Assembly: GCF_024305245.1 (NCBI RefSeq)
Contig: NZ_JAMWYX010000004.1
Location: 124,001 to 188,000 of the forward strand
Reading direction: 5' to 3'
DNA: 64,000 bases
From: Erythrobacter sp.
GTDB lineage: Bacteria > Pseudomonadota > Alphaproteobacteria > Sphingomonadales > Sphingomonadaceae
Below, one piece after another: positions 29,131 to 45,867 of this stretch; within the stretch, counting starts at the first letter, position 1; the number at the start of each line of letters is the position of its first letter. The notes below the pieces were generated by a model. The model was not told where the DNA came from. It saw only the letters and a list, made by a program, of their open reading frames with translations, and did not search any database. Made by a program: the position numbers and the translations under genes.

Positions 29131-30267
29131 TCAGCTTTTCTCCGGCGGTTCCAATGCCACGCGGCTGCGGTTGAGGCTGCCGGACAATTCTCTGGCGATG
29201 AACCCGGTGACGGCCTCCCGCACATCGCAGCGCAATTCGAACAATTCGCTGCCGTCGCGCCCGCTCATCAACACGCGCACTTCGAGCGCCTGCGCGGTCA
29301 TGTCGGTCACCTGCACTTTGGCCACGCGCCCATCCCACAGCGGATGCTGCTCCACCGCCGCAATCGCGATCTCGCGCAGACGGTCGACATCGGCGGCATG
29401 ATCGACATAGACCATGACAGTGCCCAGCAGATGACTGGTCTCGCGGGTCCAGTTCTCGATCGGCTCTTCCATCAGATTGGCGACCGGCACCACCAGCCTG
29501 CGATCGTCCCAGATCTTCAGCACGACATAGGTCAGCGTGATGCTCTCGACCCGCGCCCATTCGCCGCGAAAGACGATCACGTCGTCGATTCGCAGCGGCT
29601 CGGTGAAAGCAAGCTGCATTCCTGCGACCAGGTTTTTGAGCAATGGCTGCGCGGCCACGCCCACTGCCAGCCCGGCCAGCCCGGCGGATGCGACCAGCGC
29701 CATGCCGACTTCGCGCACGGCGGGAATTTTCAGCAGCATCAGACCCACCGCGATCACCGCCACAACCACCGTCGCGACCCGTGCAAGGATGTCGGCGCGC
29801 GTGCGCTTGCGCCGGGCTTCCAGATTGTCGACCGCGCTCAGATCGGCCTGCATCCGGATATAGCGATGGACAAGCCGGATCGCCGCAATCGCCAGCCAGC
29901 CCCACAGCAGCGGCATCGCCGTGCCGGCGATGGTCACCACCAGCTCTGCGGTTTCCTCGCTGCGCATCGCGATATGGTCGGTCCACAGCAAGACCAGCGC
30001 CACGATGATCCAGCGCAGAGGCCGGGACAGCAGCGGTAGCAGCGCCTCATCCCGGGCCGTGCGGGTGCGCCTGACGATACGGCGGACGACGAAGACCAGC
30101 GCGGCATGAACGGCAAGCCCCGCCAGCGCCAGCATCGCAGCGGCTCCCAGCGCCGCAGCCGCATCGACCAGATCGACCCGGTCCACAGGAAACCGGTCGA
30201 CACGGATACGGCCTGCCACGTCCTGCAACAGGTTCATGGCGGGGAAGTTCGTGGATGGCGTCATCAT
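29131..30267 (-). CDS. MscS family mechanosensitive channel
   Basis: Inner-membrane channel protein of 378 residues with about four to five helices in the first 220 residues. The pore-lining helix is GMALVASAGLAGLAVGVAAQPLLKNLVAGMQL and the MscS beta-domain follows (TEPLRIDDVIVFRGEWARVESI then VVPVANLMEEPIENWTR). It probably releases solutes on osmotic downshock. The first ATG (30267) is taken, though ATG at 30237 is also possible; neither has a strong ribosome site. It follows the SDR gene by 12 bases and is likely co-transcribed with it. Confidence 0.85.
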   Translation of the reverse strand: MMTPSTNFPAMNLLQDVAGRIRVDRFPVDRVDLVDAAAALGAAAMLALAGLAVHAALVFVVRRIVRRTRTARDEALLPLLSRPLRWIIVALVLLWTDHIAMRSEETAELVVTIAGTAMPLLWGWLAIAAIRLVHRYIRMQADLSAVDNLEARRKRTRADILARVATVVVAVIAVGLMLLKIPAVREVGMALVASAGLAGLAVGVAAQPLLKNLVAGMQLAFTEPLRIDDVIVFRGEWARVESITLTYVVLKIWDDRRLVVPVANLMEEPIENWTRETSHLLGTVMVYVDHAADVDRLREIAIAAVEQHPLWDGRVAKVQVTDMTAQALEVRVLMSGRDGSELFELRCDVREAVTGFIARELSGSLNRSRVALEPPEKS

Positions 30268-30279
30268 GGCAGCGGCGGT

Positions 30280-31131
30280 TCAGCTGCCGACTATGATCCC
30301 GCCATTGGGATGCAGGATCTGCCCGCTCATGTAGCTGGAATCCTCGCACGCCAGATACAGGAACGCGGGCGCGACCTCGTTGGGCTGGCCCGGACGGCCC
30401 ATCGGGGTGGATTCGCCGAACCCTTCCAGCTTCTCCTTGCTCGCACCGCCGAACGGATTGAGCGGGGTCCAGATCGGTCCCGGCGCCACGCCATTGACCC
30501 GGATGCCCTTGCCGACGAGATTTTCCGACAGGCTGCGGGTAAAGGCCGTGATCGCGCCCTTGGTGGCGGAATAATCCAGCAGCTCGTCCGCGCCCTTGTA
30601 CATCGTCACTGATGTGCAGTTGATGATCGCTGCACCTTCCTTCAGGTGCTTCATCGCCGCCTGCACCATGTAGAACATGCCATAGACATTGGTCTGGAAG
30701 GTGCGCTGCAGCTGCTTTTCGGAGATCTGCGTCACGTCCTTGTCGGGGTGCTGCTCGCCCGCATTGTTCACGAGGATGTCGATCCGGCCGAACGAGCGGA
30801 CCGCCAGGTCGACGATCTCGCGGCAATGGTCGCGCTCGCCGATATTGCCCGCGATGGTGACGGCTCTGCCGCCCTCGGCCTCGACCAGTTCGGCGGTCTT
30901 CTGCGCGTCCTCGTCCTCTTCGAGATAGGCGATGACGACATTCGCGCCTTCACGCGCGAACAGCACGGCGACAGCGCGGCCGATGCCGGAATCGCCGCCG
31001 GTGACAATCGCGACCTTGCGATCGAGCCGACCCGATCCGGGATAGCGCGGCTCCCAATCGGGCTTGGGATCGAGCTCGGCCTCGCTGCCTGGCAGCTTGC
31101 CTTCCTGCAATTTCGATACGGTCTTTCCCAT
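30280..31131 (-). CDS. SDR family oxidoreductase, general-stress type
   Basis: Short-chain dehydrogenase of 283 residues. An N-terminal extension (GKTVSKLQEGKLPGSEAELD with PKPDWEPRYPGSGRL after it) precedes the Rossmann motif VAIVTGGDSGIGRA. The catalytic Tyr-Lys pair is in LLDYSATKGAIT, after NCTSVTMYKG, and NNAGEQHP is the structural motif. This extended N-terminus is characteristic of the YghA/GsiB-linked general-stress subgroup (Bacillus Gsp39). The ending SSYMSGQILHPNGGIIVGS is typical. Likely NADP-dependent; substrate unknown. Confidence 0.9.
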   Translation of the reverse strand: MGKTVSKLQEGKLPGSEAELDPKPDWEPRYPGSGRLDRKVAIVTGGDSGIGRAVAVLFAREGANVVIAYLEEDEDAQKTAELVEAEGGRAVTIAGNIGERDHCREIVDLAVRSFGRIDILVNNAGEQHPDKDVTQISEKQLQRTFQTNVYGMFYMVQAAMKHLKEGAAIINCTSVTMYKGADELLDYSATKGAITAFTRSLSENLVGKGIRVNGVAPGPIWTPLNPFGGASKEKLEGFGESTPMGRPGQPNEVAPAFLYLACEDSSYMSGQILHPNGGIIVGS

Positions 31132-31227: not shown

Positions 31228-31245
31228 AACCCAACAACATGGGTT
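31228..31245. promoter_or_regulatory. Short inverted repeat between divergent SDR and glf-fusion genes
   Basis: AACCCA-ACAACA-TGGGTT, six-base perfect arms, in the 258-base divergent region. A possible operator; no known consensus is matched. Confidence 0.3.
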
Positions 31246-31389
31246 CGGAAAACGGGAGAATTCGGGCGAAAACCTGCAGGTTCACCTATGTAAGACAGCG
31301 CGCGAATGCGGCGGGCTAGGGATTGATTCGACCAGACACGACTCGCCGGCTCATTCCGGCAGGTGGCTGGCACCCCGGAGCCTTACGCG

Positions 31390-33729
31390 ATGCACCGCAT
31401 ACCCCAGCATAACCCCACGCCTGCCGCATCAGAGCGCCCGGTGATCATCTGCTTTTCGCATCTGCGCTGGAATTTGGTGTTCCAGCGCCCGCAACACATC
31501 ATGACCCGGCTGCTCGAACAGTTCGAGGTGGTGTACTGGGAGGAACCGCGCGCCGATCCGGCGTGCCGCACTCCGTATCTCGACCGCGTCCCGCTGAGCG
31601 GCGGGCCGGTGCGCGTGGTGCCGGTTCTGCCCGAAGGCCTCGATGCCGAGGCGAGCGAGCACGCGCTGCGCCAGCTGCTCGATGTCGAGCTTGCGCGCCA
31701 GACATGTCCGATCATCTTCTGGTATTACACGCCGATGATGCTGGCGTTCAGCGCCTCGTCAGCGGCGGATCTGGTGGTCTATGACTGCATGGACGAACTG
31801 GCGAATTTCGCCTTCGCGCCCGAAGATATTGCCACGCGCGAAAACGAACTGCTGAAACGTGCCGATCTGGTGCTGTGCGGCGGGCGCAGCCTGTACGAGG
31901 CGCGGCGCGGACGCCATCACAACATCCACTGCTTCCCCTCTGGCGTCGATATCGCACATTTCGCCCGGGACCCGGCGGACGTGCTCGATCCGCAGGATCA
32001 GGCGCAACTGGCGCGACCGCGGCTCGGTTTTTACGGTGTGATCGACGAGCGAATGGACCTTGACCTGCTGAGCGAGATGGCCCGTCTGCGGCCGGACTGG
32101 TCGTTCGTAATGGTCGGCCCGGTGGTGAAGATCAGCCATGAAGACCTGCCGCGCCCGGCCAATATCCACTGGCTCGGCCGCAAGGAATATGACGAGTTGC
32201 CCGATTATGCCGCGCACTGGGACGCGGCGCTGATGCCGTTCGCGCTGAACGCATCGACCGAGTTCATCAGCCCCACCAAGACCCCGGAATACATGGCCAG
32301 CGGTCTGCCGGTGGTCTCCACACCGATCACCGACGTGGTCGACGCTTACGGTGGGCTTGCCAGCATTCGTATCGCCGGGGACGCACCCGGCTTTGTCGCG
32401 GCCTGCGAAGACCTGCTGTCTGCCGGGGCCGGGGCGCGCGCTCACAGGCGTTCGCAGGCAGAGCAGTGTCTGGCGGACAAGAGCTGGGATACCATCGTCG
32501 GCGCCATCGCCCGCAAGCTGCAGAATGCACTGGTCACGCGTCAGGTGACGAAAATCATCGGCGCCGGTCCAAAGCGGGAGCGGCGGCATTACGATGTGCT
32601 GGTGGTCGGCGCAGGCTTTGCCGGTGCCGTCATGGCCGAACGGATCGCGGCAGGTTCCGACCGGTCGGTGCTGTTAATCGACAAGCGCGATCATGTCGGC
32701 GGCAATGCCCATGATTTCCATGATGCGGCGGGCATTCTGGTGCACAAATACGGCCCGCACATCTTCCACACCAACAGCCGCGACATCTTCGAATACCTCT
32801 CGCGTTTCACGGCGTGGCGGCCTTACGAACATCGCGTGCAGGCACAGGTGGACGGCAAGCTGGTGCCGATGCCGATCAACCGAACCACGCTGAACCAGCT
32901 TTACGGGCTGAACCTTTCAACCGAGGAGGAGGCGGCCGAATATCTGAAATCGGTCGCGGTCGATCCGGGCGAGATCCGCACGTCGCGCGATATGGTCGTG
33001 GCGCAGGTGGGCGAGGATCTCTACGAGAAGTTCTTCGAAGGCTACACCCGCAAGCAGTGGGGCATGGACCCGCGCGATCTCGACAAGAGCGTGGCGGCGC
33101 GGGTTCCGGCGCGCACCAGCACCGATGATCGTTATTTCACCGATGCCCACCAGTACATGCCGGCGCTGGGTTACACCGCGCTGTTCGATACCATGCTGGC
33201 GCATCCCGATATCGACGTGATGACCGGCCAGTCCTTTGCCGGTCTTCCGGCGGAGATCACCTGGGACCATCTGATCTGGACTGGGCCGGTCGACGAATAT
33301 TTCGGGTATCGGCTGGGCCGCTTGCCCTATCGATCGCTCCGCTTCGAGCATGAAACCCTGCCGCTTGCACAGGCGCAGCCGGTGGCGGTGGTCAATTACC
33401 CCGATCCCGCTGTGCCCTACACCCGGATTACCGAATACAAGCACCTGACCGGCCAGAACGCGCCGGTCACCAGCATCACGCGCGAATATCCGGCCGACGT
33501 GGGCGATCCCTATTACCCGATTCCCAATCCCGAAGCGCAGGAGATGTACCGTCGCTATGCCGCGCTCGCCCGGACCTGCGATGGCGTGACATTCGTCGGC
33601 AGGCTGGCGACCTATCGCTATTACAACATGGACCAGATCGTCGGACAGGCACTGGCGACATGGCGGCGGCTGGACGCCGGGTGGCGGGAGGCCGAAGAGG
33701 AACTGATCGCAATGGTCGCGGCGGAATGA
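31390..33729 (+). CDS. Fusion of a glycosyltransferase and UDP-galactopyranose mutase
   Basis: A 779-residue two-domain protein. Residues 1-390 form a GT-B type glycosyltransferase of the TuaH-like group (FSHLRWNLVFQRPQHIM, later VIDERMDLDLLSEMARLRP and NASTEFISPTKTPEYMASGL). Residues about 400-779 form a UDP-galactopyranose mutase: the FAD site DVLVVGAGFAGAVMAERIA, HKYGPHIFHTN, the KQWGMDPRDL region and the ending LATYRYYNMDQIVGQAL. The mutase makes UDP-galactofuranose, which the transferase half could use. ATG at 31390 has GGAG upstream, while the ORF-track GTG is nine codons earlier. It overlaps the next gene (ATGA). Confidence 0.9.
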   Translation: MHRIPQHNPTPAASERPVIICFSHLRWNLVFQRPQHIMTRLLEQFEVVYWEEPRADPACRTPYLDRVPLSGGPVRVVPVLPEGLDAEASEHALRQLLDVELARQTCPIIFWYYTPMMLAFSASSAADLVVYDCMDELANFAFAPEDIATRENELLKRADLVLCGGRSLYEARRGRHHNIHCFPSGVDIAHFARDPADVLDPQDQAQLARPRLGFYGVIDERMDLDLLSEMARLRPDWSFVMVGPVVKISHEDLPRPANIHWLGRKEYDELPDYAAHWDAALMPFALNASTEFISPTKTPEYMASGLPVVSTPITDVVDAYGGLASIRIAGDAPGFVAACEDLLSAGAGARAHRRSQAEQCLADKSWDTIVGAIARKLQNALVTRQVTKIIGAGPKRERRHYDVLVVGAGFAGAVMAERIAAGSDRSVLLIDKRDHVGGNAHDFHDAAGILVHKYGPHIFHTNSRDIFEYLSRFTAWRPYEHRVQAQVDGKLVPMPINRTTLNQLYGLNLSTEEEAAEYLKSVAVDPGEIRTSRDMVVAQVGEDLYEKFFEGYTRKQWGMDPRDLDKSVAARVPARTSTDDRYFTDAHQYMPALGYTALFDTMLAHPDIDVMTGQSFAGLPAEITWDHLIWTGPVDEYFGYRLGRLPYRSLRFEHETLPLAQAQPVAVVNYPDPAVPYTRITEYKHLTGQNAPVTSITREYPADVGDPYYPIPNPEAQEMYRRYAALARTCDGVTFVGRLATYRYYNMDQIVGQALATWRRLDAGWREAEEELIAMVAAE

Positions 33730-35162
33730 GGCACGCCGAAGCCCTGCGCGAACGGGTCATCAGCCGTTCCGATGCGCCCCCGATCGCCGCGAACTGGGTG
33801 CGATGCGCCAGCGGAGCCCCCTATTTCGCAACCGAGTCCGGCGCGGTGTGGACTCCGGTGGGCCTTAACGAGGCGGTCACCTGGCCTAACATTGCCCCGC
33901 TTTACCGCAGGCGTGATCCCGCGGCGGTCGAACGGTACTTCGCCATGCTTGCCGCCAGCGGGGTCAACTGCCTCAGGATGATGCTGGACTATAGCCAGGT
34001 CTCCCACCGCCATCTCGAAACGCGCTGCGGCCGGTTCAGCCCGGCGATGGTGCAGCTGTGGGACGATCTTATCGCATTGGGGGAGCGGCATGGCATCCGG
34101 TTCCTGATCACCCCGTTCGATACCTATTTTATGGCCCGGCGCTGGCGCAGCCATCCTTACTCGCGGGCGGCGGGCGGGCCGTGCCGATCGGTCAGACAGA
34201 TGTTCACCTGCGCCCGCACGCGCACCGCTATTATCGAGCGGCTGCGGTTCGCCACCCGCCGCTGGGGTCACAGCCCGGCGATCTTCGGCTGGGATCTGTG
34301 GAACGAGATCGACAGCTTTTATTCCGGCGGTGATATGGCCGCTGTGGACGCCTTCGTCACCGAAGTTTCGGACGCGCTTCGCACCGAGGAATTGCGGCTG
34401 CACGGGCGCACGCACCTGCAGACGGCGTCGGTCTATATGCCGGTGCTGGAGAAACGCCCGGAACTCGCGGACATCGTGTTCCGGCATCGCTCGCTCGATT
34501 TTGCCAGCGTCCATCTTTACGACCGCGGCACGATCGATCATCCGCGCTGCTCGCTCGACCCGGCCAGGGCGACCGCACAATTGATGACACAGGCGTTGGA
34601 GCAGTGCCCGCCGGATCGCCCGCTGCTCGATACCGAACATGGGCCGATCCACGCGTTCACGGATCACCGGATCAGCCTGCCCGATGATTTCGATTCCGAT
34701 TGTTTCCGCCGCACGCAATGGGCGCATATCGCCAGCGGCGGGGCGGGAGGCGGAATGCGCTGGCCCTATCGCGATCCGCATGTGCTGCTGCCCGAAATGC
34801 ACCGGGCGCAGACCGTGCTGGCGCAATTCCTGCCGCTGATCGACTGGCATCGCCTGCAACGCCGCCCGCTGGGCGCACGGCTCAAGGCGCATGATTTCAC
34901 CGGATTGGCCTGCGGCTGCGGCGACGAGACGCAAGCGGTGGTTAGTCTGATGGCGGCGCCCGAGCAAGGCGGCAAGCCTGCGGCGCTGGAAGTTTCGGGG
35001 CTCGAACCGGGCAGCTACACGGTCACGCATGTGAACACCGTAACCGGCGAACGCGAAAGCGGCCAGGTTCACACCCGGCAGGATGGCACGCTGGTGGTGC
35101 TGGCCGGTGCTGCCGGACAGGACGTGGCGCTGGCGCTGGTGCGTGAAGACGCCGCGGATTAG
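33726..35162 (+). CDS. Glycoside hydrolase of clan GH-A (GH5-like)
   Basis: A 478-residue TIM-barrel glycosidase. SGVNCLRMMLDYSQVSHRHLE, IFGWDLWNEIDSFYSGGD (acid/base Glu after Asn) and RPLLDTEHGPIHAFTDH (nucleophile Glu) are the strand-4 and strand-7 features of clan A. A small beta-domain ends the protein. No signal peptide is seen, so it may act in the cytoplasm or on intermediates. ATG at 33726 overlaps the stop of the mutase fusion, so the two genes are translated together; a galactofuranose-containing substrate is an attractive guess. Its stop overlaps that of the CinA-like gene on the other strand. Confidence 0.75.
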   Translation: MRHAEALRERVISRSDAPPIAANWVRCASGAPYFATESGAVWTPVGLNEAVTWPNIAPLYRRRDPAAVERYFAMLAASGVNCLRMMLDYSQVSHRHLETRCGRFSPAMVQLWDDLIALGERHGIRFLITPFDTYFMARRWRSHPYSRAAGGPCRSVRQMFTCARTRTAIIERLRFATRRWGHSPAIFGWDLWNEIDSFYSGGDMAAVDAFVTEVSDALRTEELRLHGRTHLQTASVYMPVLEKRPELADIVFRHRSLDFASVHLYDRGTIDHPRCSLDPARATAQLMTQALEQCPPDRPLLDTEHGPIHAFTDHRISLPDDFDSDCFRRTQWAHIASGGAGGGMRWPYRDPHVLLPEMHRAQTVLAQFLPLIDWHRLQRRPLGARLKAHDFTGLACGCGDETQAVVSLMAAPEQGGKPAALEVSGLEPGSYTVTHVNTVTGERESGQVHTRQDGTLVVLAGAAGQDVALALVREDAAD

Positions 35163-35704
35163 TCGGCGGTTCGTCCGGCCACTGTCCGGATACCGATCGC
35201 AAGGGCCGCAAAAGCGGCGAGGTTGCGCACCTCGCTACGGGGCCGTTCGCCGTAATCGACCCGGTAAACCCATGATTGGCTGGGGACGGCAGCGCCGACA
35301 TAGACGACACCCGGCCCCTCTGGCTCATCCAGATCCGGCGTGCCCGCAAGCCCTGTGATCGCCAGAGAGAGATCGCAGCCCGCGCGCGACAGGCTGTTTT
35401 CCGCCATCGCGCGGGCCACCGGTTCGCTGACTGCGCCATACCGGTCGATCAGGTCAGGGCCAATGCCCAGCATCTGATGTTTGGCGGCCTTGGAATAGGT
35501 GACGAACCCCCGGTCGAGACAATGGCTCAACCCCTCGATATCGGTCAGCAGCGAGGCGAGAAAGCCGCCGGTGCAGCTTTCCGCCGTCGCCAAGGTCATG
35601 CCGGCCCGATCAGCCTGAACCAGCAGGCTGCGCGCCGAAGCCCGCAGTTGCGCCATGTCCGGCACGCCGCATTGCGCCCAGTCCTGTCCTGCCGTCTGTG
35701 CCAT
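35159..35704 (-). CDS. CinA C-terminal domain protein (nicotinamide-nucleotide amidohydrolase-like)
   Basis: A 181-residue protein equivalent to the stand-alone CinA/PncC domain, which deamidates NMN to nicotinic acid mononucleotide. Key motifs are ATAESCTGGFLASLLTDIEG, the strand VTYSKAAKHQMLGI, GAVSEPVARAMAENSLSRAG and SLAITGLAGTPD. Start at 35704 is taken as the first in-frame ATG; ATG at 35656 would give the usual family N-terminus, and neither has a clear ribosome site. It lies 12 bases after the hemerythrin gene. Confidence 0.85.
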   Translation of the reverse strand: MAQTAGQDWAQCGVPDMAQLRASARSLLVQADRAGMTLATAESCTGGFLASLLTDIEGLSHCLDRGFVTYSKAAKHQMLGIGPDLIDRYGAVSEPVARAMAENSLSRAGCDLSLAITGLAGTPDLDEPEGPGVVYVGAAVPSQSWVYRVDYGERPRSEVRNLAAFAALAIGIRTVAGRTAD

Positions 35705-35716
35705 TTGACGCCGATG

Positions 35717-36223
35717 TCAGGCCTGGATCGCGACCGGCTCGGGTCGCGGCAGGTCGCCATCCTTGGCCTGCTGCTGCAACTGCGCTTTCAGTTCGGCCAT
35801 TTTCTCGCCGAGCGCGTCGAGATCGAAATCGGCCTTGCGCACTTCTGAAAACATGCTGCCGCGCTGGCGTTCTTCCTCGTAGACGTGGTGTTCGACCTGC
35901 TCCTTGAGCACGCTCACCTTGGCGTCGTAATATTCGTCCGAGGGTTCGGCGTTCTGCAAAGACAGGATCAGCGCCTTTGCGCTGTCGTGTTCGACCTGCG
36001 CTTCGTTCATCATGTCGGCTTCCACCGCGTCGCGGATCGCGGGGTAGAACACCTGCTCCTCCACCATCGTGTGGATGATCAGTTCTTCGCAAATCTGGTG
36101 CACGATTTTCTGCTGGGCGGATGCGCCGCGCGCGCTTTCATATTTCTCGAACAGCGATTCCACCTTTCGGTGATCGTCGGCCAGCATCTGCAGCGCGTCG
36201 CGCTTGTCGTTCTTGTCAGTCAT
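35717..36223 (-). CDS. Hemerythrin HHE domain protein
   Basis: A 168-residue four-helix protein with an O2- or iron-binding HHE domain: LADDHRKVESLFEKYE, ICEELIIHTMVEEQVFYPAI and NEAQVEHDSAKALI provide His and Glu ligands, with VEHHVYEEERQRGSMF after them. A C-terminal coiled segment with Gln repeats (LKAQLQQQAKDG) follows. ATG at 36223 has AGGAAAA upstream; the ORF-track start is 99 codons too early. It may sense or buffer oxygen, nitric oxide or iron. It is divergent from ku. Confidence 0.85.
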   Translation of the reverse strand: MTDKNDKRDALQMLADDHRKVESLFEKYESARGASAQQKIVHQICEELIIHTMVEEQVFYPAIRDAVEADMMNEAQVEHDSAKALILSLQNAEPSDEYYDAKVSVLKEQVEHHVYEEERQRGSMFSEVRKADFDLDALGEKMAELKAQLQQQAKDGDLPRPEPVAIQA

Positions 36224-36416
36224 GATTGGGTTTTCCTGTGTTCGAGTCGGCAGACGACCATGATCCCTGTGTCGTCCCGCCCGCGCCCGGCGGCACACGC
36301 CTATGTTAGTGTGGCAGCCCCGGACCTGTTTCAGACCGCAGGCTGGGCACGCGTCCCCGCAATCTGTGGCCCGCAATCCGAGGCCCGCAAGACGAGGTTG
36401 AAAGAAAACACCGCAA

Positions 36417-37280
36417 ATGGCTGCACGTGCATATTGGTCTGGCCAGATTAGACTGGCGCTGGTCTCGATCCCGGTCGAGATTTTCTCGGCCACGCAATCG
36501 GGTGCGAAGATCCGCTTCAACCAGATTCACCGCCCGAGCGGGAAACGCATCGCCTATGAAAAGGTGGTGCCCGGCATCGGGCCGGTCGACCGCGACGACA
36601 TCATCAAGGGGTATGAAATCAGCAAGGGCAGCTACGTCCTGCTGGAGGAGCGCGAGATCGAGGCGGTCAGGATCGAAAGCAAGCGCACGCTCGAACTGGT
36701 GCAGTTCGTGGATACGGGCGAGATCGATCCGCTCTATTTCGAAAAGCCCTATTACGTCGCGCCCAAGGATCAGCTTGCCGAAGAAGCATTTGTGGTGCTG
36801 CGCGACGCGATGCGGAAGGCGGGGAAGGTCGGCCTGGGGCAATTATCCGTGCGCGGGAGCGAGAAGCTGGTCGCGCTCAAGCCCTGCGGCAAGGGCCTGC
36901 TGCTCGAAACTCTGCGCTATGCCGACGAGGTGCGGCAGGGGCGCGCGTTCTTCGAGGATATCGACGATATCAAGCCGGATACCGAACTGCTCGACCTCGC
37001 AACCACGCTGATCGACAAGCGCACAGCGCCCTTCGATGCCGGCGAGTTCGAGGATCGTTACGTCGAGGCGCTGCGCACCATGATCGAGAAGAAGGCCAAA
37101 TCGAAATCTGGCAAGGCGATCATTGATGATGCCGAAGCGCCCGCAGGCACGGGCGGCAACGTGATCGACCTGATGGCCGCGCTCAAGAAATCGGTCGGCG
37201 GGGAGAAGGGCGGCAGCAAGGACGCCAAGAAGCCGCCTGCGAAGAAGAAGCCTTCGGCCAGCACCCGCAAGAGCGCCTGA
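36417..37280 (+). CDS. ku: Ku protein of bacterial non-homologous end joining
   Basis: Homodimeric DNA end-binding protein of 287 residues that recruits LigD. RAYWSGQIRLALVSIPVEIFSA at the start, FNQIHRPSGKRIAYEKVVPG and the ELVQFVDTGEIDPLYFEKPYYV bridge region are hallmark Ku segments. The C-terminal tail (DAKKPPAKKKPSASTRKS) is Lys-rich as usual and contacts DNA or LigD. Its TGA overlaps the ATG of the MgtC-like gene by one base. Bacterial Ku/LigD is typically used in stationary phase and stress, which fits the region. Confidence 0.95.
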   Translation: MAARAYWSGQIRLALVSIPVEIFSATQSGAKIRFNQIHRPSGKRIAYEKVVPGIGPVDRDDIIKGYEISKGSYVLLEEREIEAVRIESKRTLELVQFVDTGEIDPLYFEKPYYVAPKDQLAEEAFVVLRDAMRKAGKVGLGQLSVRGSEKLVALKPCGKGLLLETLRYADEVRQGRAFFEDIDDIKPDTELLDLATTLIDKRTAPFDAGEFEDRYVEALRTMIEKKAKSKSGKAIIDDAEAPAGTGGNVIDLMAALKKSVGGEKGGSKDAKKPPAKKKPSASTRKSA

Positions 37281-37768
37281 TGGAACTGAACGCTGCCGTT
37301 CCCCTTGCCGGGGCCGATGCCGAACTCGTGCTGCGGCTGGGCCTTGCTGCGGTGCTGGGCCTGCTGCTGGGGCTGGATCGCGAATTGCGCGGCCACGCCG
37401 CCGGTTTGCGGACACACGGCCTGATCTGCCTTGCCGCTGCAACGATCACTGTCTCCGTCATTGGTCTGTACGGCAATATGGACATGCTCAACGCCGATCC
37501 GCTGCGCCTTTATGAAGCGGCAGGGGCGTTCATCGGAATTATCGGCGCAGGGCTGATCGTGTTCAACAAGGGCGAGGTGCAGAACATCACCACCGCCGCG
37601 CACCTGTTCCTGACGGCGGTGATCGGGATCGCCTGCGGGGCAGCGCAATGGCCGCTGGTGGCAATTGCCGCGCCGGTCGGGCTGCTGATGCTGTCGGTTC
37701 TGGGGCTGCTGGAACGCAAAGCGCACAAGCATCGCATCAAGAGCGCGGACGATGCCCGCAAAACGTGA
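37280..37768 (+). CDS. MgtC/SapB family membrane protein embedded in the NHEJ operon
   Basis: A 162-residue membrane protein. LRLGLAAVLGLLLGLDRELRGHAAGLRTHGLI is the MgtC/SapB family signature, followed by GAFIGIIGAGLIVF, NITTAAHLFLTAVIGIACGAA and two more helices, with a basic C-terminus. Family members act in Mg-limited growth or with other membrane proteins; no enzymatic role is known. It lies between ku and ligD, overlapping both (1 base and 17 bases), so it must be co-translated with them. Why a membrane protein sits inside an end-joining operon is unclear. Confidence 0.85.
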   Translation: MELNAAVPLAGADAELVLRLGLAAVLGLLLGLDRELRGHAAGLRTHGLICLAAATITVSVIGLYGNMDMLNADPLRLYEAAGAFIGIIGAGLIVFNKGEVQNITTAAHLFLTAVIGIACGAAQWPLVAIAAPVGLLMLSVLGLLERKAHKHRIKSADDARKT

Positions 37769-40271
37769 TCCACTCGCCGATTACAATGCGAAGCGCGACT
37801 TCGCCAAGACGCCGGAGCCTGCGGGCAAGGCGCAGGCGGGCACTTCCGGCCACCGCTTCATCGTGCAGAAACACGACGCCACGCGGTTGCACTGGGACTT
37901 GCGGCTGGAAATCGGCGGCGTGCTGAAAAGCTGGGCGGTGACCAAGGGACCAAGTCCCGATCCTGCGATCAAGCGGCTGGCCGTGCGGACCGAGGATCAC
38001 CCGATGTCCTATGCGGATTTCGAAGGCACCATTCCCAAGGCCGAGTACGGCGGCGGCACGGTGATGCTGTGGGATCGCGGGACGTGGGCACCGGTGCCCG
38101 GCAAGAGCGCGAAGGATCTGGACAAGGGCCACCTGCACTTCACGCTGGATGGCGAGCGGATGAAGGGCGAATGGCTGCTGATCCGGCTGAAGCCCAAGCC
38201 GGGCGAAAAGCGCGAGAACTGGCTGCTGCGCAAGCTCGACGATGCCCATGCAGGCGCAGGCGACACGCTGGTGGAGCAGGGGCTGACCAGTATCCTCACC
38301 GGCCGATCGATGGCCGAGATCGCGTCGGGGAAGGCGGGTAAGGCAAAGCCGCAGGACAACCGGGACACCGTCCCCGCCCGGATGAAGCAGGCGGCCAAGG
38401 ATTCCGGAACGGCCAGCAAAAAGCCCCATCGCCCACGTGCCGCACCGCTCCCCAAGTATCGCCAGCCGCAGCTGGCGACGCTGGTCGACGACGTGCCGGC
38501 CGGCAATGGCTGGATGCACGAAATCAAGTTCGATGGGTACCGCGCGCTGGTGGCGGTCAAGGGCCGCGAGGTTCGGGTTTATACCCGATCCGGTCAGGAT
38601 TGGACGGACAAGTTCGGCCCCCTTGTCGAGGCTTTGGCCGCGCTCGATCTGCCGTCCGCGCTGATCGACGGGGAAATCGTGGCGCATGATCCGGCGGGCA
38701 ATCCCGATTTCGCCAGCCTGCAGAAGGTGCTGAAACGCGGGCACGGATCGCAAGGCGCAGGCGACGTGCTCGCCTTCCACGCGTTTGATCTGCTCGAAAT
38801 CGGCGGTGAGGATTTGGCCGGGCTGCCCAATATCGAGCGCAAGGAACGGCTCGAGGCGTTGCTCGCGGCAGCAGCGCCGCCGATCCATGTCGCCGATCAC
38901 GTCATCGGCGCGGGCGAGCGGCTGCTGCGCGGCATGTGCGATGCCGGGCAGGAAGGGATCATCTCCAAGGCGATCGACGCGCCCTATGCTGCGCGACGCA
39001 GCCGTGACTGGGTCAAGGTCAAGTGCACGCGGCGGCAGGAATTCGTGATCGTCGGATGGAAAGCGTCTGCGTCGCGCGGCCGCCCGTTCGCGTCGCTGCT
39101 ACTGGCCCAGCATGACAGCGATACGCTGGTTTACAGGGGCAATGTCGGGACCGGGTTCGACGGTGACACCCTTGCCGATCTGGCCGCCAAGATGAAGCGG
39201 ATCGAACGCAAGACCGCTCCGGTGGAGGTCGATCGCACCGCCGCACGCGGGGTCACATGGGTCACACCAAAGCTGGTCGCCGAGATCGCCTTCGCCGAAT
39301 TCACCACCGAGGGCCGCGTGCGCCATGCCAGTTTCCTTGGCCTGCGCAGTGACAAGCCTGCGGGCGAGGTGCGGCCCGAACAGCCCGAACCCGCCCCTGA
39401 CAACGCGGTTGCCAAAGTCGCCATTTCCAACCGCGACCGCGTGATTTTCCCCGACAGCGGCCAGACCAAGGGCGACCTGGCCGATTACTATGCCGCCATT
39501 GCGCCGCTGATGCTGCCGTTTGCCGCCAATCGCCCGGTCAGTCTGGTGCGGTGTCCGCAAGGCCGGGCGCGCAAGTGCTTTTTCCAGAAGCACGACAGCG
39601 GCAGCTTCGGCGAAGGGGTGCACCACGTTCCGATCCGCGAAAAGGACGGCGGGCACGAGGATTACCTGTTCATCAAGGACGCGCGCGGCATCCTGCAATG
39701 CGTGCAGATGGGCACGATCGAATTCCACGGCTGGGGCGCGCGCGCCGATGCGGTCGAAGCGCCCGATCGTATGGTGTTCGATCTCGATCCCGACGAGGGG
39801 CTGGAATTCGGCGCCATCTCGCGCGCGGCGAGCGACATTCGCGCCCAGCTTGCCGATCTCGGGCTGGTGAGCTTCGCCATGCTGTCGGGCGGGAAGGGCG
39901 TGCACGTGGTGGTGCCATTGACGCCCGGGCATTCGTGGGACGAGCACAAGGACTTCGCGCGCCGGTTTTCCGAAGCGCTGGCGCTGGCGGAGCCCGAACG
40001 CTTCACCGCGACGATGTCCAAGGCCAAACGCAAGGGCAAGATCTTCATCGACTGGTTGCGCAATCAGCGCGGCGCGACGGCGGTCATGCCCTATTCCGCG
40101 CGCGCGCGGAGCGGAGCTCCGGTGGCGGTGCCGATTCCCTGGAACGAGCTGGAGCAGGCCGACAATGCCCAGCTCTTCGCGATCGGCGATGCGCCCGCGC
40201 TGATCCGGCGTGCCCGCGCCGCTGCGCTGGCCGGATGGGGCTTCGCCGCGCAGGCGTTACCGGCGGTGTAA
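37752..40271 (+). CDS. ligD: Multifunctional DNA ligase D
   Basis: An 839-residue NHEJ enzyme with three modules in the order phosphoesterase, ligase, polymerase. Residues 1-185 hold the 3'-phosphoesterase (GHRFIVQKHDATRLHWDLRL, YGGGTVMLWDRGTW). Residues 220-530 hold the ATP-dependent ligase, nucleotidyl Lys in HEIKFDGYRALVAV. Residues 545-839 hold the primase-like polymerase (VSLVRCPQGRARKCFFQKH, MVFDLDPDEGLEF with catalytic Asp residues, SGGKGVHVVVPL). It repairs double-strand ends brought together by Ku. It starts inside the MgtC-like gene. Confidence 0.95.
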   Translation: MPAKRDPLADYNAKRDFAKTPEPAGKAQAGTSGHRFIVQKHDATRLHWDLRLEIGGVLKSWAVTKGPSPDPAIKRLAVRTEDHPMSYADFEGTIPKAEYGGGTVMLWDRGTWAPVPGKSAKDLDKGHLHFTLDGERMKGEWLLIRLKPKPGEKRENWLLRKLDDAHAGAGDTLVEQGLTSILTGRSMAEIASGKAGKAKPQDNRDTVPARMKQAAKDSGTASKKPHRPRAAPLPKYRQPQLATLVDDVPAGNGWMHEIKFDGYRALVAVKGREVRVYTRSGQDWTDKFGPLVEALAALDLPSALIDGEIVAHDPAGNPDFASLQKVLKRGHGSQGAGDVLAFHAFDLLEIGGEDLAGLPNIERKERLEALLAAAAPPIHVADHVIGAGERLLRGMCDAGQEGIISKAIDAPYAARRSRDWVKVKCTRRQEFVIVGWKASASRGRPFASLLLAQHDSDTLVYRGNVGTGFDGDTLADLAAKMKRIERKTAPVEVDRTAARGVTWVTPKLVAEIAFAEFTTEGRVRHASFLGLRSDKPAGEVRPEQPEPAPDNAVAKVAISNRDRVIFPDSGQTKGDLADYYAAIAPLMLPFAANRPVSLVRCPQGRARKCFFQKHDSGSFGEGVHHVPIREKDGGHEDYLFIKDARGILQCVQMGTIEFHGWGARADAVEAPDRMVFDLDPDEGLEFGAISRAASDIRAQLADLGLVSFAMLSGGKGVHVVVPLTPGHSWDEHKDFARRFSEALALAEPERFTATMSKAKRKGKIFIDWLRNQRGATAVMPYSARARSGAPVAVPIPWNELEQADNAQLFAIGDAPALIRRARAAALAGWGFAAQALPAV

Positions 40272-40277
40272 CCCCGC

Positions 40278-41015
40278 CTATTCGCGGTTGAAGTGCAGGT
40301 AATTATTGTTGAACATCGCGATCCGCTTCAGCTTTTCGAGGTCGAGGATGCGCAATTGGCGGTCCGCCAGTTCGATCAGCTCCATGCGCCGCATTTCCTG
40401 CAATGTCCGGTTGACGTGAACCAGACTGAGGCCGTTGGCTTCGGCAAGATTATGTTGGGTGATCGGGAAGTCGAAACAGTGATCCTGCGCCTGACCGACC
40501 GCCTTGAGCCTCGAATAAAGCTCGACGAACAGGTGTGAAAGCCGCTCCACCGGAGTGCGCTGGCCAATCGACAGCAGCCATTCGCGCTGGATGCCCGATG
40601 CCACCATCTCGTGCCACAGCAATGCCCGCAGCAGGTGCGGACGTTCATCGATGACCTGCTGGAACTGGTGCGGCAGAAGCTCGAAATATCGCACCGGGGT
40701 CAGCGCGCCGATCGAATGGTCGAGCTCGCTCAGGATATAGACGCTCAGATCGCAGAAATCGCCGGGCAGGAAGAAGGCAACGATCTGACGCCGACCGTCG
40801 GGCAGGTCCTTGTAACGGCACGCCCAGCCCGAAACCAGCAGGCGGATAACGCTGGGGTTTTCCCCCTCGCGCGCCAGGTCGGCGCGCGCTTCTTTGGTGC
40901 AGATCGGCCCGACTTCCAGCATCGTTAGTGCCGCGCGATCTTCGGCAGTGAGCGGCATGTACCGGCTGAGCAGACGAAAAAGCGGCTCTATCCCCGCAGA
41001 GACCAGTTCGGTCAT
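40278..41015 (-). CDS. Crp/Fnr family transcriptional regulator (first of two)
   Basis: A 245-residue regulator. Residues 40-140 form a cyclic-nucleotide-binding-fold domain (GWACRYKDLPDGRRQIVAFFLPGDFCDL). The C-terminal winged helix has FPITQHNLAEANGLSLVHVN then RTLQEMRRMELIELADRQL. No Cys cluster for an Fe-S site is seen, so it is not an FNR-type oxygen sensor. Its ligand is unknown. A 5-4-5 dyad lies 98 bases upstream of its start and related dyads lie near neighbouring genes, so it is the prime candidate to bind them, itself included. It is convergent with ligD (6 bases). Confidence 0.85.
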   Translation of the reverse strand: MTELVSAGIEPLFRLLSRYMPLTAEDRAALTMLEVGPICTKEARADLAREGENPSVIRLLVSGWACRYKDLPDGRRQIVAFFLPGDFCDLSVYILSELDHSIGALTPVRYFELLPHQFQQVIDERPHLLRALLWHEMVASGIQREWLLSIGQRTPVERLSHLFVELYSRLKAVGQAQDHCFDFPITQHNLAEANGLSLVHVNRTLQEMRRMELIELADRQLRILDLEKLKRIAMFNNNYLHFNRE

Positions 41016-41112
41016 TGGTCACCCCTCATGATTCGCCGAGGCCCACCACCCCGGCAATTTCCAATCATAGATGCTTTTTTTCAAAGCGCTGGAGTGCTGC
41101 GACTAGTTGCAC

Positions 41113-41126
41113 CTAACGCAAGTTAT
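41113..41126. promoter_or_regulatory. 5-4-5 dyad A, candidate Crp/Fnr-type site
   Basis: CTAAC-GCAA-GTTAT: the left half equals CTAAC, the right half differs at one base from GTTAG. It lies in the promoter region of the first Crp/Fnr gene. Confidence 0.45.
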
Positions 41127-41159
41127 AATGAGTTCGATGGTCGGCGGCTTGCCAGCTTT

Positions 41160-41402
41160 TCAGTAGGTTGCCGGCGGATCGCTGGCGGGGAAGCTCTGGT
41201 CGACGGCTTGGTCCACGTCCGACCATTTTTCGGTTGGCTTGTCGCGCATCGCCTCCGGACCAGCATCACGCACGGCATTGGAGCTATCGTAGCTTTGCTC
41301 GTCGTCGAACGCGGCGTGGCGCTTGCGGCGGCTCTTGGAAAGCTGGTTAACCGCAAAATAGCCGGCGGCCCCTACGGCCAGAAGTTTTACAATGGCAGAC
41401 AA
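41160..41402 (-). CDS. Small hypothetical protein with TTG start and SDPPATY ending
   Basis: An 80-residue protein with a hydrophobic N-terminus (AIVKLLAVGAAGYFAVNQL) that could anchor it to the membrane and a polar remainder ending SFPASDPPATY, a tail seen in small alphaproteobacterial stress proteins. The start codon is TTG at 41402, chosen because GAGGAAG stands five bases upstream and no ATG fits. Family and function are unknown. It shares the divergent region carrying dyads B and C with the kinase gene. Confidence 0.65.
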   Translation of the reverse strand: MSAIVKLLAVGAAGYFAVNQLSKSRRKRHAAFDDEQSYDSSNAVRDAGPEAMRDKPTEKWSDVDQAVDQSFPASDPPATY

Positions 41403-41464
41403 TTTCGCTTCCTCTCGGCTATGGAGTAAAACCGGCCAATGCGCGGTCCGGCGCTGGGTCGTCC

Positions 41465-41478
41465 CTCACCTGAGTTAG
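41465..41478. promoter_or_regulatory. 5-4-5 dyad B, candidate Crp/Fnr-type site
   Basis: CTCAC-CTGA-GTTAG: right half perfect, left half one mismatch from CTAAC. It lies in the region between the small TTG-start gene (minus) and the kinase gene (plus). Confidence 0.45.
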
Positions 41479-41539
41479 GCTGCACCGCGCCTGGCAGATG
41501 GATCGGCCCCGCTATGCGTCAGGCCGAAGGAGCAGAACC

Positions 41540-41553
41540 CTAACCTGGGTTAG
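41540..41553. promoter_or_regulatory. 5-4-5 dyad C, candidate Crp/Fnr-type site
   Basis: CTAAC-CTGG-GTTAG: a perfect 14-base dyad with the geometry of FNR/FixK-type boxes but different half-site bases. It is 150 bases before the kinase start and 138 bases from the minus-strand gene. Confidence 0.55.
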
Positions 41554-41702
41554 AAAGCCTTTTGCCGTGTTCGCGTAAGGCCATCCGATCTTGTCCCGCG
41601 ATTCTGCCCGTTTCTGTTGTTTCAGGCCCGCTCGCGCAGGCATTTCCACGACATGTGATCACGGGACGACACGCTACCTGATGCGCCGCGAGAGTCACGC
41701 CC

Positions 41703-43877
41703 ATGCCGAATGATCCGCGCGCGCACGGCCACCAGAACCCGCTCGGCGAGAATATCTTTCGCGCTGCCTTTCAGGCATTCCCCGCCGCCGCCTGCATTCT
41801 CGAACCGGCCGGAGATGATAGCGAAGCGAATCGTGACTGGCGTTGTGTCGCCGTCAGCGATGCCATGCAGACCATGTTCGAAGGCGATGAACTGACCGGT
41901 CAAACCTTGCGCGGACGATTTCCCGCGTGGGCCGACGAATGGTGCGCCAGTTGCGAACAGGTGCTGGCGGACGGTAAGGAACACCTCAGCATTTCCGCAG
42001 GATCGCAGGAATCGCAGCTGTTCGAAATTGCGCTTTCCCGGCTGCCTTGCGAAGGGCGCGATGCCGTTATTGCAAAGGTGCGCGATGTCTCCAGCGAATA
42101 TGCGGCTCTGGCAAGCCAGCGCCAGATCGACGCGCGTTACAGGACCTTGTTCAACGCCATCGACGAAGGTTTCTGTATCGCCGAGGTGCTGTTTTCCGAA
42201 ACGGGCGAACCGGAAGACTACCGCTTTCTGGAAGCCAACCGTGCCTTTGTCGAGCATACCGGACTGAACGACCCCGTCGGCAAGCGCATCCGCGAAATGC
42301 AGCCTGACATCGAAGACCACTGGGTCGAAACCTATGGCAGGATCGCGCAGACCGGCATGGCCGAACGCTTCGAAAGCGAATCCTCCGCGATGGGTCGATG
42401 GTTCGATGTCTTCGCTTTTCCGATCGGCGATACGGCCCCATTTTTTGTCGGCATCCTGTTCGAGGATGTGAGGGAGCGCAAGGAGATGGAGCTGGCGCTG
42501 CGCCATAGCGAAAGCCGGCTGCATTCGCTGATCGATGCGACATCGGATCTGATCTTCCGGATGAACCCTGACGGTACCGATATCCAGCAGCTCGATGGAC
42601 GCGGGCCGCTCGGCTCGGAAAAGAAGATCGCCAACCTGCTGACCGAACATATCCCGGCAGACGACCGCAAAGCGCTGAAGCAAGCGCTCAAAACCGCCAT
42701 GCGGAACCGCGCGCCGCTGGCGATGGAGCACCGGGTCATCAATCCCGAAGGGATCATCCGATGGCTCAATTCGCGCGCCGTGCCGGTTCTGGATGATCGC
42801 GGTGAGATCACCGAATGGTTCGGCATGGCGACCGACATCACCGGCCGCAGGAAGGTGGAAGAGCAGCTCGCCCACGGCGCCCAGATGCTGCGGGTGGCGA
42901 GCGAGATCGGCAAGGTGGGGCTGTGGGACTGGAATGTCGAAACCGGTGATCTGACCTGGTCCGACGAACATTTCCGCCAGCAGGGGTTCGAAGTCGGCGA
43001 AGTCAGCCCGACCTTCGAGATCTGGGCCAGCGGGGTTCATCCCGACGATATCGGTCCGACCCGGGCGAAGCTCGACGAAGCCATGAAGACGGGCGAGGAA
43101 TACGTGAACGAATACCGCGTAACCCACCGGGACGGCACCATCCGCTGGCTTTCGGGACGTGGGCGGTTCCTGTACGATCCCGCCGGAAAGCCCGTCCGGA
43201 TGCTGGGTGCGATGATCGATGCGACCGAGCGCCGCCGTCAGGAAGAGTGGCACAAGCTGCTGGTCGCCGAACTGCAGCACCGGGTGCGCAATCTGATCGG
43301 CATGGTGCGTTCGGTCGCGCGGCTATCGGCGCCCAGCCATCGCAATGTCGATGAATATGTCGATCATCTGATCGGCCGTCTGCAGGCCATGGGCCGCACG
43401 CAATCCACGTTGACCCGGTCGCCGGGCGCCAAGGTCGATCTGGCCGAGCTGGTGCGCGAAGAACTGCTGGTGCACGCCGCACGGCCCGATCAATGCCTCG
43501 TAGAAGGGCCGGATGTGGCGCTGTCCCCGCACGCAGCCGAGATCGTCACGTTGGCCATCCATGAACTCGCGACCAATTCGATCAAATATGGCGCACTGGG
43601 CGACAAGGGATATATCCGGATCGTCTGGACCGTCAGCGATCGGGAGGCCGAAACCTGGGTGGCGCTGCGCTGGCAGGAAACCTCGCCCCACGGCAACCCC
43701 AAGCCATCGCGCAAGGGCTTCGGCCGCCGCCTGATCGAGGAACGGGTGCCCTACGAATTGCGCGGCACAGGCCGGCTCGACGTGCACGACACCGGCGTTC
43801 TGGCGCAGTTAGAATTTCCGCTCGTGGAAGGCCCGAGCATTCTCGAGACACGCAGCCACAGATTGGGCCGTATATGA
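41703..43877 (+). CDS. PAS-domain sensor histidine kinase, HWE family
   Basis: A soluble kinase of 724 residues with four PAS-like domains (about residues 15-140, 145-265, 275-400, 395-520), each of the last three closed by a PAC-type ending such as GMATDITGRRKVEEQ. The HWE kinase core follows: phospho-acceptor His in LLVAELQHRVRNLIGMV, N-box LAIHELATNSIKYGALG, and the WxE signature in LRWQETSPHG. No membrane helix is seen. Kinases of this type activate PhyR in the alphaproteobacterial general stress response. Its stop overlaps the start of the response regulator gene (ATGA). Confidence 0.9.
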   Translation: MPNDPRAHGHQNPLGENIFRAAFQAFPAAACILEPAGDDSEANRDWRCVAVSDAMQTMFEGDELTGQTLRGRFPAWADEWCASCEQVLADGKEHLSISAGSQESQLFEIALSRLPCEGRDAVIAKVRDVSSEYAALASQRQIDARYRTLFNAIDEGFCIAEVLFSETGEPEDYRFLEANRAFVEHTGLNDPVGKRIREMQPDIEDHWVETYGRIAQTGMAERFESESSAMGRWFDVFAFPIGDTAPFFVGILFEDVRERKEMELALRHSESRLHSLIDATSDLIFRMNPDGTDIQQLDGRGPLGSEKKIANLLTEHIPADDRKALKQALKTAMRNRAPLAMEHRVINPEGIIRWLNSRAVPVLDDRGEITEWFGMATDITGRRKVEEQLAHGAQMLRVASEIGKVGLWDWNVETGDLTWSDEHFRQQGFEVGEVSPTFEIWASGVHPDDIGPTRAKLDEAMKTGEEYVNEYRVTHRDGTIRWLSGRGRFLYDPAGKPVRMLGAMIDATERRRQEEWHKLLVAELQHRVRNLIGMVRSVARLSAPSHRNVDEYVDHLIGRLQAMGRTQSTLTRSPGAKVDLAELVREELLVHAARPDQCLVEGPDVALSPHAAEIVTLAIHELATNSIKYGALGDKGYIRIVWTVSDREAETWVALRWQETSPHGNPKPSRKGFGRRLIEERVPYELRGTGRLDVHDTGVLAQLEFPLVEGPSILETRSHRLGRI

Positions 43878-44248
43878 ATTCCGAGCCTCTTGCCGGCCGC
43901 CGAATCGTGATTGTCGAGGATGATTACTTCCAGGCGGAAGATTCCCGGCTGCTGCTCGAACGCGCGGGTGCGCAGATCGTGGCGATATCCGCGACCACTC
44001 CGAATCTGGCGGAACTGCTGGCTCAAGGGTCGGTCGACGCGGGCCTGATCGACATCAATCTGGGGCAGACCCATTCGCTGGATTTCGCGCGCGCGCTGCG
44101 CGATCATGCGATTCCGTTCGTGTTCCTGACCGGATATGATGCGGGAATGCTGCCTGACGATCTGACGGACGGTCCGTGCATCAGCAAACCGGCGGACGCA
44201 GAAAAGATCGTCGCCGAATTGTGCAACCTTATCCCCCCGCGCAACTGA
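43874..44248 (+). CDS. Single-domain response regulator, FATGUY-like
   Basis: A 124-residue receiver domain with no output domain. VIVEDDYFQAED gives the acidic pocket, GLIDINLG the phospho-acceptor Asp, CISKPAD the conserved Lys. The stretch PFVFLTGYDAG is close to the PFxFATGY motif of the FATGUY receivers that work as phosphate relays in the general stress response (SdrG in Sphingomonas). It is co-translated with the HWE kinase and is probably its direct partner. The motif has Leu where Ala is usual. Confidence 0.87.
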   Translation: MNSEPLAGRRIVIVEDDYFQAEDSRLLLERAGAQIVAISATTPNLAELLAQGSVDAGLIDINLGQTHSLDFARALRDHAIPFVFLTGYDAGMLPDDLTDGPCISKPADAEKIVAELCNLIPPRN

Positions 44249-44296
44249 ACCGACCGCCGCGCCCGCGCGTGATATAGCGCGGGCGTGGCGGTCGGT
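44249..44296. terminator. Very strong 20-base hairpin between convergent genes
   Basis: A 20-base stem with one mismatch and an eight-base loop (GTGATATA) begins directly after the response-regulator stop and ends 8 bases before the second Crp/Fnr stop. It lacks a T-run, so it may act as an mRNA 3' end stabiliser on both strands rather than a classic terminator. Confidence 0.6.
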
Positions 44297-44304
44297 CAGG
44301 CAGG

Positions 44305-45057
44305 TCAGGCGGCGATCGCCTTGTAGTTGACGAGCATATCCTGATTATCCGTGCGCGGCGCGAGATAGGCGCTGTCGAACCCGGCGACCTGCTGCAATTC
44401 GCGCAAGTCGAGGATCGTCATCTGCTTTGATCGCAAGGTGATCAGCTTCTCGTGCCGCAGCTGCTGGAGCTTGCGGTTGATGTGAACCGGGGTCAGGCCG
44501 AGCACATCGGCCAGATCATCCTGCGTCAGCGGAAAGAAGAACTGGTTGCCCTGTGCCCCGTCCACCAGCGCGAGCCGGAAATGGGCTTCGCAGATCAGGT
44601 GGGCCATCCGTTCGAGCGCATCGCGGCGCCCGACATTGACCGCCCAGGATGCAAGAATGGCATTTTCCATGCAGCCGTAGTTGCGCATGGCTTCGCCGAT
44701 CGCGGGGTAGCGTTCGATCGCGCGGTTCATGTCGGCATGCGGAATGTTGACGATCTGGCAGGGGCTCAGCGTGATGACTTCTTCGATCGCCACCGCATCG
44801 GGCGAGGAATCGAAATAGAAGGCATCGCCCGGCAGCAGCAGCCTGGTGATCTGGCGCGCGCCGTTGCGAAGGATCTGGTAGCGGGCGGCCCAGCCGCTCA
44901 GAATAACGGGAAAGGTGACGATCTCGTCGCCATCGCGGGAGAGGTACTTCTTCGCCGGGATTTCCCGCGGATTGCGGCAGAGTTCTTCAAGAACACCGAT
45001 TTCGCTCTGGGAGAGTGCTGCGGCATGCGACAACCGTTGCAGGAAGGCGTTGGTCAT
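44305..45057 (-). CDS. Crp/Fnr family transcriptional regulator (second of two)
   Basis: A 250-residue regulator with a cyclic-nucleotide-binding-fold domain (GWAARYQILRNGARQITRLLLPGDAFYFD) and a winged helix (PLTQDDLADVLGLTPVHINR followed by KLQQLRHEKLITL). The recognition helices of the two regulators share VHxNRxLQ, so they may read similar sites. ATG at 45057 has GAGGAGG before it; the ORF-track start is eight codons earlier. Its upstream region carries two CCTAGGA palindromes. No Fe-S cysteines are seen. Confidence 0.85.
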   Translation of the reverse strand: MTNAFLQRLSHAAALSQSEIGVLEELCRNPREIPAKKYLSRDGDEIVTFPVILSGWAARYQILRNGARQITRLLLPGDAFYFDSSPDAVAIEEVITLSPCQIVNIPHADMNRAIERYPAIGEAMRNYGCMENAILASWAVNVGRRDALERMAHLICEAHFRLALVDGAQGNQFFFPLTQDDLADVLGLTPVHINRKLQQLRHEKLITLRSKQMTILDLRELQQVAGFDSAYLAPRTDNQDMLVNYKAIAA

Positions 45058-45498
45058 AGAAGTCCTCCTCATAATAAGCATGAGGGGGTAGTGTCCTAGG
45101 AGTTGGCCGTGCGCTCCTGCTCAAATGTTATTCGCGGTGTTGATTCTTGTGCAACTCACCGTGGAAACAGGGCGAACCATCGGGCGCCGGGCCGAACGTG
45201 ATGTAATACGATGACATTTACCTAGGATGATATCGTCCAGCGAATCGGTCTGCGCCCTTTTATCGCGGCCGATCAGGCTGATGCCGGACTTTTGTGGCCC
45301 GGGTGCAGCTTCGCACGGAAGGGCAATCTGCGACTTGTGAATCCCCGTGTCGACCAATCGGGCGCACCCGGCGATGGGGCGCGGCGGGTGGGTAATACAG
45401 GATAGTCGCCCCTCCCGATGCCCATGTCAGGTTCAAGCAGAACCGAAGCGGCGGCCCGGTCGCCCCTTTCCGGTTCTCACTTGGGAAAGGAACAAGAC
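45058..45498. other. 441-base intergenic region with short palindromes
   Basis: Between a minus-strand regulator and a plus-strand gene. I see no credible gene (the 45121-45357 minus ORF has no ribosome site or recognisable protein). It holds TCCTAGGA (45094-45101), a second CCTAGGA (45221-45227) and a near-perfect 14-base palindrome GGATGATATCGTCC (45225-45238), which may be regulator sites for the genes on either side. Confidence 0.5.
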
Positions 45499-45867
45499 AT
45501 GGCAGACGAGCGCAATCAGAATCGCGAAGGCCAGAACGAAGGTGGCCGCAATCAGAACCAGCAGCGTCAGCAGGGCCAGCCCGGCCAGATGGAGCAGCAG
45601 GATCGCCAGCAGGGCCGCGATCAGGACGATAGCGGCCAGCGCGCGCAGGGCGGCCAGGCCGAGCAGCGCGGTTATGGCGGGCAGGGCGGGGTAACCGGCG
45701 GATACCAGCCGGGCTCGCAAGGTTCGCAGGACCAGCAGCGTGAAGGCCAGCAGGATCAGGGCCAGCAACGTCAGGGCCAGCAAGGCCAGAGCGAAGGTCG
45801 CCCGTCCTCCTCCAGTGGTTCGAGCAGCTCGGAGGGTTCCGGCAAGTCCGGCTCCTCCTCGAGCTGA
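45499..45867 (+). CDS. Low-complexity Gln/Gly-rich, intrinsically disordered protein
   Basis: A 122-residue protein made almost wholly of Gln, Gly, Arg, Asp and Ser: it starts MADERNQNREGQNEGG, continues in Q/G/R runs and ends with a Ser/Gly stretch. No hydrophobic core is present, so it should be disordered; hydrophilin- or KGG-type stress proteins are comparable in composition. ATG at 45499 has AAAGGAAC before it; the ORF-track start lies 27 codons upstream. The opposite strand also has a long open frame, an effect of composition. Likely a desiccation or osmotic stress protectant, inferred from composition and neighbours. Confidence 0.65.
   Translation: MADERNQNREGQNEGGRNQNQQRQQGQPGQMEQQDRQQGRDQDDSGQRAQGGQAEQRGYGGQGGVTGGYQPGSQGSQDQQREGQQDQGQQRQGQQGQSEGRPSSSSGSSSSEGSGKSGSSSS

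Follow-up and report, generated by a model that had tools for sequence, protein, structure and literature searches.

In bacteria, galactofuranose (Galf) is best known from envelope glycans. Its donor, UDP-Galf, is made at an unfavourable equilibrium by UDP-galactopyranose mutase (UGM), and the bacterial Galf transferases that have been characterised are, to our knowledge, few and mostly members of GT2. Among described systems, the pam genes adjoin a UGM gene (PMC12269835).

The locus presented here lies in a window of 64,000 nucleotides, the whole stretch of Erythrobacter sp. DNA that was analysed (GCF_024305245.1, contig NZ_JAMWYX010000004.1, positions 124,001 to 188,000). It joins a GT4-type glycosyltransferase (GT) and a complete UGM in one reading frame, followed by the gene of a GH5-like glycosidase. 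Our best reading, to which we give a probability of about one half, is that the two genes form an operon serving galactofuranosylation in the cytoplasm, with an intracellular glycosidase dedicated to it. The features of the locus, in window coordinates, are the following.

30280-31131, minus strand: divergent SDR oxidoreductase, PRK06701-like, conserved beside the module
31232-31296, plus strand: intergenic element(s) upstream of the fusion, CAACAACATGGGTT and TCACCTATGTAAGAC, then GGCTAGG; conserved, from nine aligned upstream regions
31390-32560, plus strand: GT half of the fusion, GT-B, GT4/'Glyco_trans_1_4', about aa 26-390 of the 788-aa ORF; PF13692 and model fold
32561-32586, plus strand: linker between the halves, variable and gapped in 14 fused homologues
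32587-33729, plus strand: C-terminal UGM half, FAD enzyme, aa 409-788; TIGR00031 and 3hdq match
33726-35162, plus strand: GH5-like clan-A glycosidase, 478 aa; confident model, Foldseek match to GH5 ManDH5, invariant Glu pair

The fused transferase and mutase

The open reading frame of the fusion (31363-33729, plus strand) runs uninterrupted through 788 codons. Translation likely starts at the ATG at 31390, the coordinate given in the original prediction, which yields a protein of 779 aa; this ATG encodes M10 of the frame, the sole invariant N-terminal residue in an alignment of 14 fused homologues. The original prediction had announced a transferase and a full mutase in one frame, and the stretch from 31390 to 33729, with its PF13692 and TIGR00031 domains, confirms that this is a true GT-UGM fusion.

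The GT half carries a group-1 GT-B domain (43 bits against Pfam PF13692, cut-off 27), and its structural model displays a confident alpha/beta fold, with pLDDT mostly between 80 and 95 across aa 21-390. Its description as 'TuaH-like' is right as a distant likeness and fails at the level of the TuaH equivalog, the score against NF047676 being 89.2 bits for a cut-off of 550. A sequence search for a solved relative of this half found none, so that its donor specificity is read from the GT-UGM pairing alone. The GT half plausibly uses UDP-Galf, mainly because it pairs with UGM, fused or split, and the occurrence of the same GT and UGM in both states argues for a shared substrate.

The UGM half scores 353.6 bits against TIGR00031 (cut-off 303.75), with aa 410-767 spanning profile positions 2-373 of 378, and its closest solved structure is the D. 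radiodurans-type UGM 3hdq (491.7 bits). The segments GPHIFHT, KQWG, R-x5-RYF, YTRITE and YRYYNMD align to solved UGMs, with nearly every position invariant in 14 fusions, and we take them to be the FAD-binding and active-site segments of the enzyme. The structural model of this half is poor because the alignment is shallow. With these similarities, the UGM half is predicted to be a UDP-galactopyranose mutase interconverting UDP-Galp and UDP-Galf; the genome encodes no second full UGM.

The GH5-like glycosidase

Neither Pfam nor NCBIfam returned a family for the glycosidase or for the relatives that we scanned, and the term 'GH5-like' in the original prediction therefore holds by profile and fold and not by curated sequence family. 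A profile built from five sequences retrieved the GH5 mannanase ManDH5 (E 1e-13), and a Foldseek search with the AlphaFold model (pLDDT 91.8) returned ManDH5 first (TM 0.75/0.64, 18% identity) and GH140 apiosidases next. The model has the (beta/alpha)8 barrel of clan A and GH5, with the acid/base glutamate E194, in an NE pair, after strand 4 and the nucleophile E304 after strand 7. Across 61 homologues, N193, E194, H263, Y265 and E304 do not vary, and E194 aligns with the WNE-motif residue that is changed in ManDH5 E303Q, the mutant used for ligand complexes. No signal-peptide-like stretch was seen at the N-terminus. Given the fold, the invariant catalytic residues and the lack of a signal peptide, this protein, as modelled, is very probably a clan-A glycosidase that is active and resides in the cytoplasm. 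Its nearest solved relative, a beta-mannanase at 18% identity, fixes the fold and the mechanism and not the substrate.

Genomic setting and the question of a surface glycan

The module is embedded in a stress-type island (29131-31131 and 35159-50558) with genes for MscS, SDR, CinA, hemerythrin, Ku, MgtC, LigD, two Crp-type regulators, a PAS-HWE histidine kinase and the GT20 trehalose-phosphate synthase OtsA, the last scoring 550 bits, slightly below its cut-off. The order SDR, fusion, glycosidase is kept in the nearest loci, often together with CinA, Ku and LigD. Further along the window, a 994-aa TPR-CHAT (caspase-like) protein is encoded on the minus strand (54795-57779).

The original prediction saw in this combination a galactofuranose-containing surface sugar, a proposal that the neighbourhood does not bear out. 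Under it, the fusion would add Galf to a lipid-linked precursor of a surface polysaccharide or LPS decoration, the glycosidase would edit the product, and the export genes would lie elsewhere in the genome. The envelope is where bacterial Galf is usually met, and related loci offer some encouragement, with a GH1-like gene and an ABC transporter downstream of the Azospirillum fusion and two large glycosyltransferases downstream of that of S. meliloti. However, the window ORFs that we scanned include no gene for Wzx/Wzy, ABC export or a polymerase, and in neither the fusion protein nor the glycosidase is a signal peptide or membrane segment apparent, which leaves a surface polysaccharide unsupported; the neighbours of the module are, moreover, stress genes. 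We hold a surface glycan to be unlikely but far from negligible.

Upstream of the fusion, within 31232-31296, the palindromic CCCATAACATGGGT and TCACCTATGTAAGAC with GGCTAGG are common to nine loci and form a candidate promoter or operator; TCACCTATGTAAGAC has a single exact match in the window. The EcfG (general stress) promoter pattern GGAAC-N15-18-GTT, for which we scanned, occurs six times in the window for 4.3 expected, not above chance, and is absent upstream of the fusion, so that EcfG control of the window's fusion was rejected. In other loci, it stands upstream of the GT in five closely related Mesorhizobium loci and upstream of the glycosidase gene in 4 of 79 loci against 0.78 expected (three of the four being Roseomonas-type), occurrences that are only suggestive. 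The EcfG regulon of S. melonis Fr1 lists an adjoining 'Glycosyltransferase'/'Glycosidases' pair, #1750/#1751 (PMC6599016). This pair, whose correspondence to the fusion and glycosidase genes is conjectural, was left out of the evidence. Its title 'Glycosidases' is presumably that of the alpha-amylase COG.

Coupling of the glycosidase to the transferase-mutase pair

The ATG of the glycosidase gene at 33726 overlaps the TGA of the fusion (33727-33729). This four-base ATGA overlap (33726-33729), already part of the original prediction, is identical in all eight nearest loci examined and common to nine of nine nearest copies, and no RNA structure was detected at it (z -0.2).

Scanning 84,980 species, we collected 80 loci with a GH5-like gene. 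A GT and a UGM lie within about 10 kb of it in 28 of them, which come from both Alphaproteobacteria and Bacteroidota and have the genes in tandem, divergently or otherwise arranged. Among 301 Sphingomonadales genomes, the GH5-like gene is present in eight, all of which have a GT-UGM, adjacent in six and unlinked in two. Set against the 31 genomes with a GT-UGM, this co-occurrence gives a hypergeometric p of about 5e-9, a value inflated by genome relatedness; the coupling holds nonetheless, since its spread over two phyla and its several arrangements do not depend on p. With the conserved overlap, the gene neighbourhood and the phylogenetic co-occurrence, the coupling of the glycosidase to the fusion, as first proposed, is real and beyond chance.

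A second type of glycosidase recurs in this setting. Of 19 GT-UGM loci fetched without a GH5-like gene, 16 contain a clan-A gene of GH1-like type within the sequence fetched, and ten loci combine GT-UGM with both types, which rules out their mutual exclusion. Together with the co-occurrence of the GH5-like gene, these neighbours indicate that GT-UGM is repeatedly accompanied by an intracellular clan-A glycosidase. Most GT-UGM loci are adjoined by a GH1/GH42-like cytoplasmic 'beta-galactosidase' family barely matched by Pfam (L051:10491-11639; L168-L186).

The remaining 52 of the 80 loci, some with short flanks, have the GH5-like gene without UGM, so Galf is not necessarily the substrate of its product. 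In several of these, its neighbours encode glycosyltransferases, sugar epimerases and PIG-L deacetylases, company that points to glycan making and not to feeding. In Dyadobacter (L108:11493-17627, L112), the gene is found without UGM and with genes for acyl-CoA-dehydrogenase-like, GT2, PIG-L deacetylase, GH1-like and TuaH-like GT proteins, a putative further glycan pathway.

The many relatives without UGM, and a GH5 beta-mannanase as nearest structure, would both fit a glycosidase that is functionally separate (of beta-mannosidase/mannanase type, for example, or another beta-glycosidase) and merely co-transcribed, with GT-UGM as the only Galf enzyme. Co-occurrence and adjacency in two phyla, including all eight Sphingomonadales genomes, and the different clan-A glycosidase of other GT-UGM loci argue against such independence, which we consider improbable.

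Distribution of fused and split forms

The GT-UGM fusion is already common in databases, where it is annotated 'glf', and the word 'unusual' was an overstatement as far as the fusion is concerned, given its frequency in Alphaproteobacteria. About 22 of the 301 Sphingomonadales genomes have the one-frame fusion and about nine have GT and UGM as separate neighbouring genes; within the genus, the fusion is patchy (5 of 37 genomes, the source genome counted). Plasmid records covering at least 80% of the fusion query number 104, with 54-59% identity for the best listed, and are mostly named 'glf' where annotated. A plasmid copy in Sphingomonas daechungensis (L048:10001-14495) looks broken: its match comes in three pieces, after which stand a short fragment of GH1 and an SDR gene. 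In searchable papers, we found no description of a characterised GT-UGM fusion.

Roseomonas, Mesorhizobium, Aureimonas and Pontibacter carry GT and UGM as separate genes that either overlap or are separated by a few bases up to some tens of them. In a tree of the UGM domain, fused and split forms fall in several groups, requiring four changes of which at least one is forced. Such split relatives are all that would speak for a sequencing frameshift having joined two genes, and at least 21 loci from independent assemblies with the same intact fusion and without stop, besides the 104 plasmid records, leave this artefact practically no chance.

Proposed pathway

Under cytoplasmic galactofuranosylation, the reading that we prefer, the UGM half would convert UDP-Galp into UDP-Galf and the attached GT would draw off this scarce donor and transfer Galf to a small or lipid-linked acceptor, the fusion helping it to do so in spite of the unfavourable equilibrium. 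The glycosidase, in the same compartment, could act on the Galf product or on a precursor by trimming, turnover or transglycosylation. The identity of donor, acceptor and product is inferred, as is any part played in stress; the stress-gene setting suggests as product a glycoside or glycolipid connected with stress, and not a surface polysaccharide of the classical kind.

Going further, a previously undescribed pathway might extend across phyla, in bacteria mostly exposed to surfaces, air and desiccation. There, a GT-UGM pair or fusion and dedicated cytoplasmic clan-A glycosidases (GH5-like, outside assigned families, and/or GH1-like) would make and remodel a stress-related intracellular galactofuranosyl compound. 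This generalisation is tentative and, on balance, rather doubtful.

The locus is of interest on several aspects. Its transferase, covalently attached to UGM, offers a direct lead towards a new Galf transferase of GT4 type, and the fusion equally offers a way to study substrate channelling by assays on a single protein. For the glycosidase family with its invariant catalytic residues, the genetic partner GT-UGM hints at candidate substrates.

Comparison with known systems

What is new here is the GH5-like family outside Pfam and NCBIfam, its strong cross-phylum link to GT-UGM and, in this lineage, the stress genes around the module. The glycosidase shares with the GH5 beta-mannanase ManDH5 (9gmj) and the GH140 apiosidases the clan-A (beta/alpha)8 barrel, a C-terminal beta domain and the catalytic glutamate in WNE. 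It differs from them by its low sequence identity (18%), its lack of a Pfam or NCBIfam family, its predicted intracellular location and its ties to glycan-making genes.

Known loci of this kind are the GT-UGM 'glf' genes on Azospirillum, Sphingobium and Sinorhizobium plasmids, which have the same fused architecture at 54-59% identity but are followed by GH1-like, transferase or unknown genes and by no GH5-like gene. Classical Glf/UGM enzymes (TIGR00031; D. radiodurans 3hdq, K. pneumoniae 1wam) resemble the UGM half in their conserved active-site segments and in a full-length domain over the curated cut-off, but are single-domain proteins, whereas this UGM is fused behind a glycosyltransferase. 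TuaH and the GT4 glycosyltransferases share with the GT half the GT-B domain and the group-1 transferase Pfam match, although the GT half falls far under the TuaH equivalog cut-off (89 vs 550 bits). With the bacterial galactofuranosyltransferases GlfT2/PamC (GT2) and PamA (GT111), the likeness is the use or expected use of UDP-Galf. These enzymes have GT2 and GT111 folds and are encoded by separate genes, whereas the fusion places a GT4-type GT-B transferase on the mutase's own chain.
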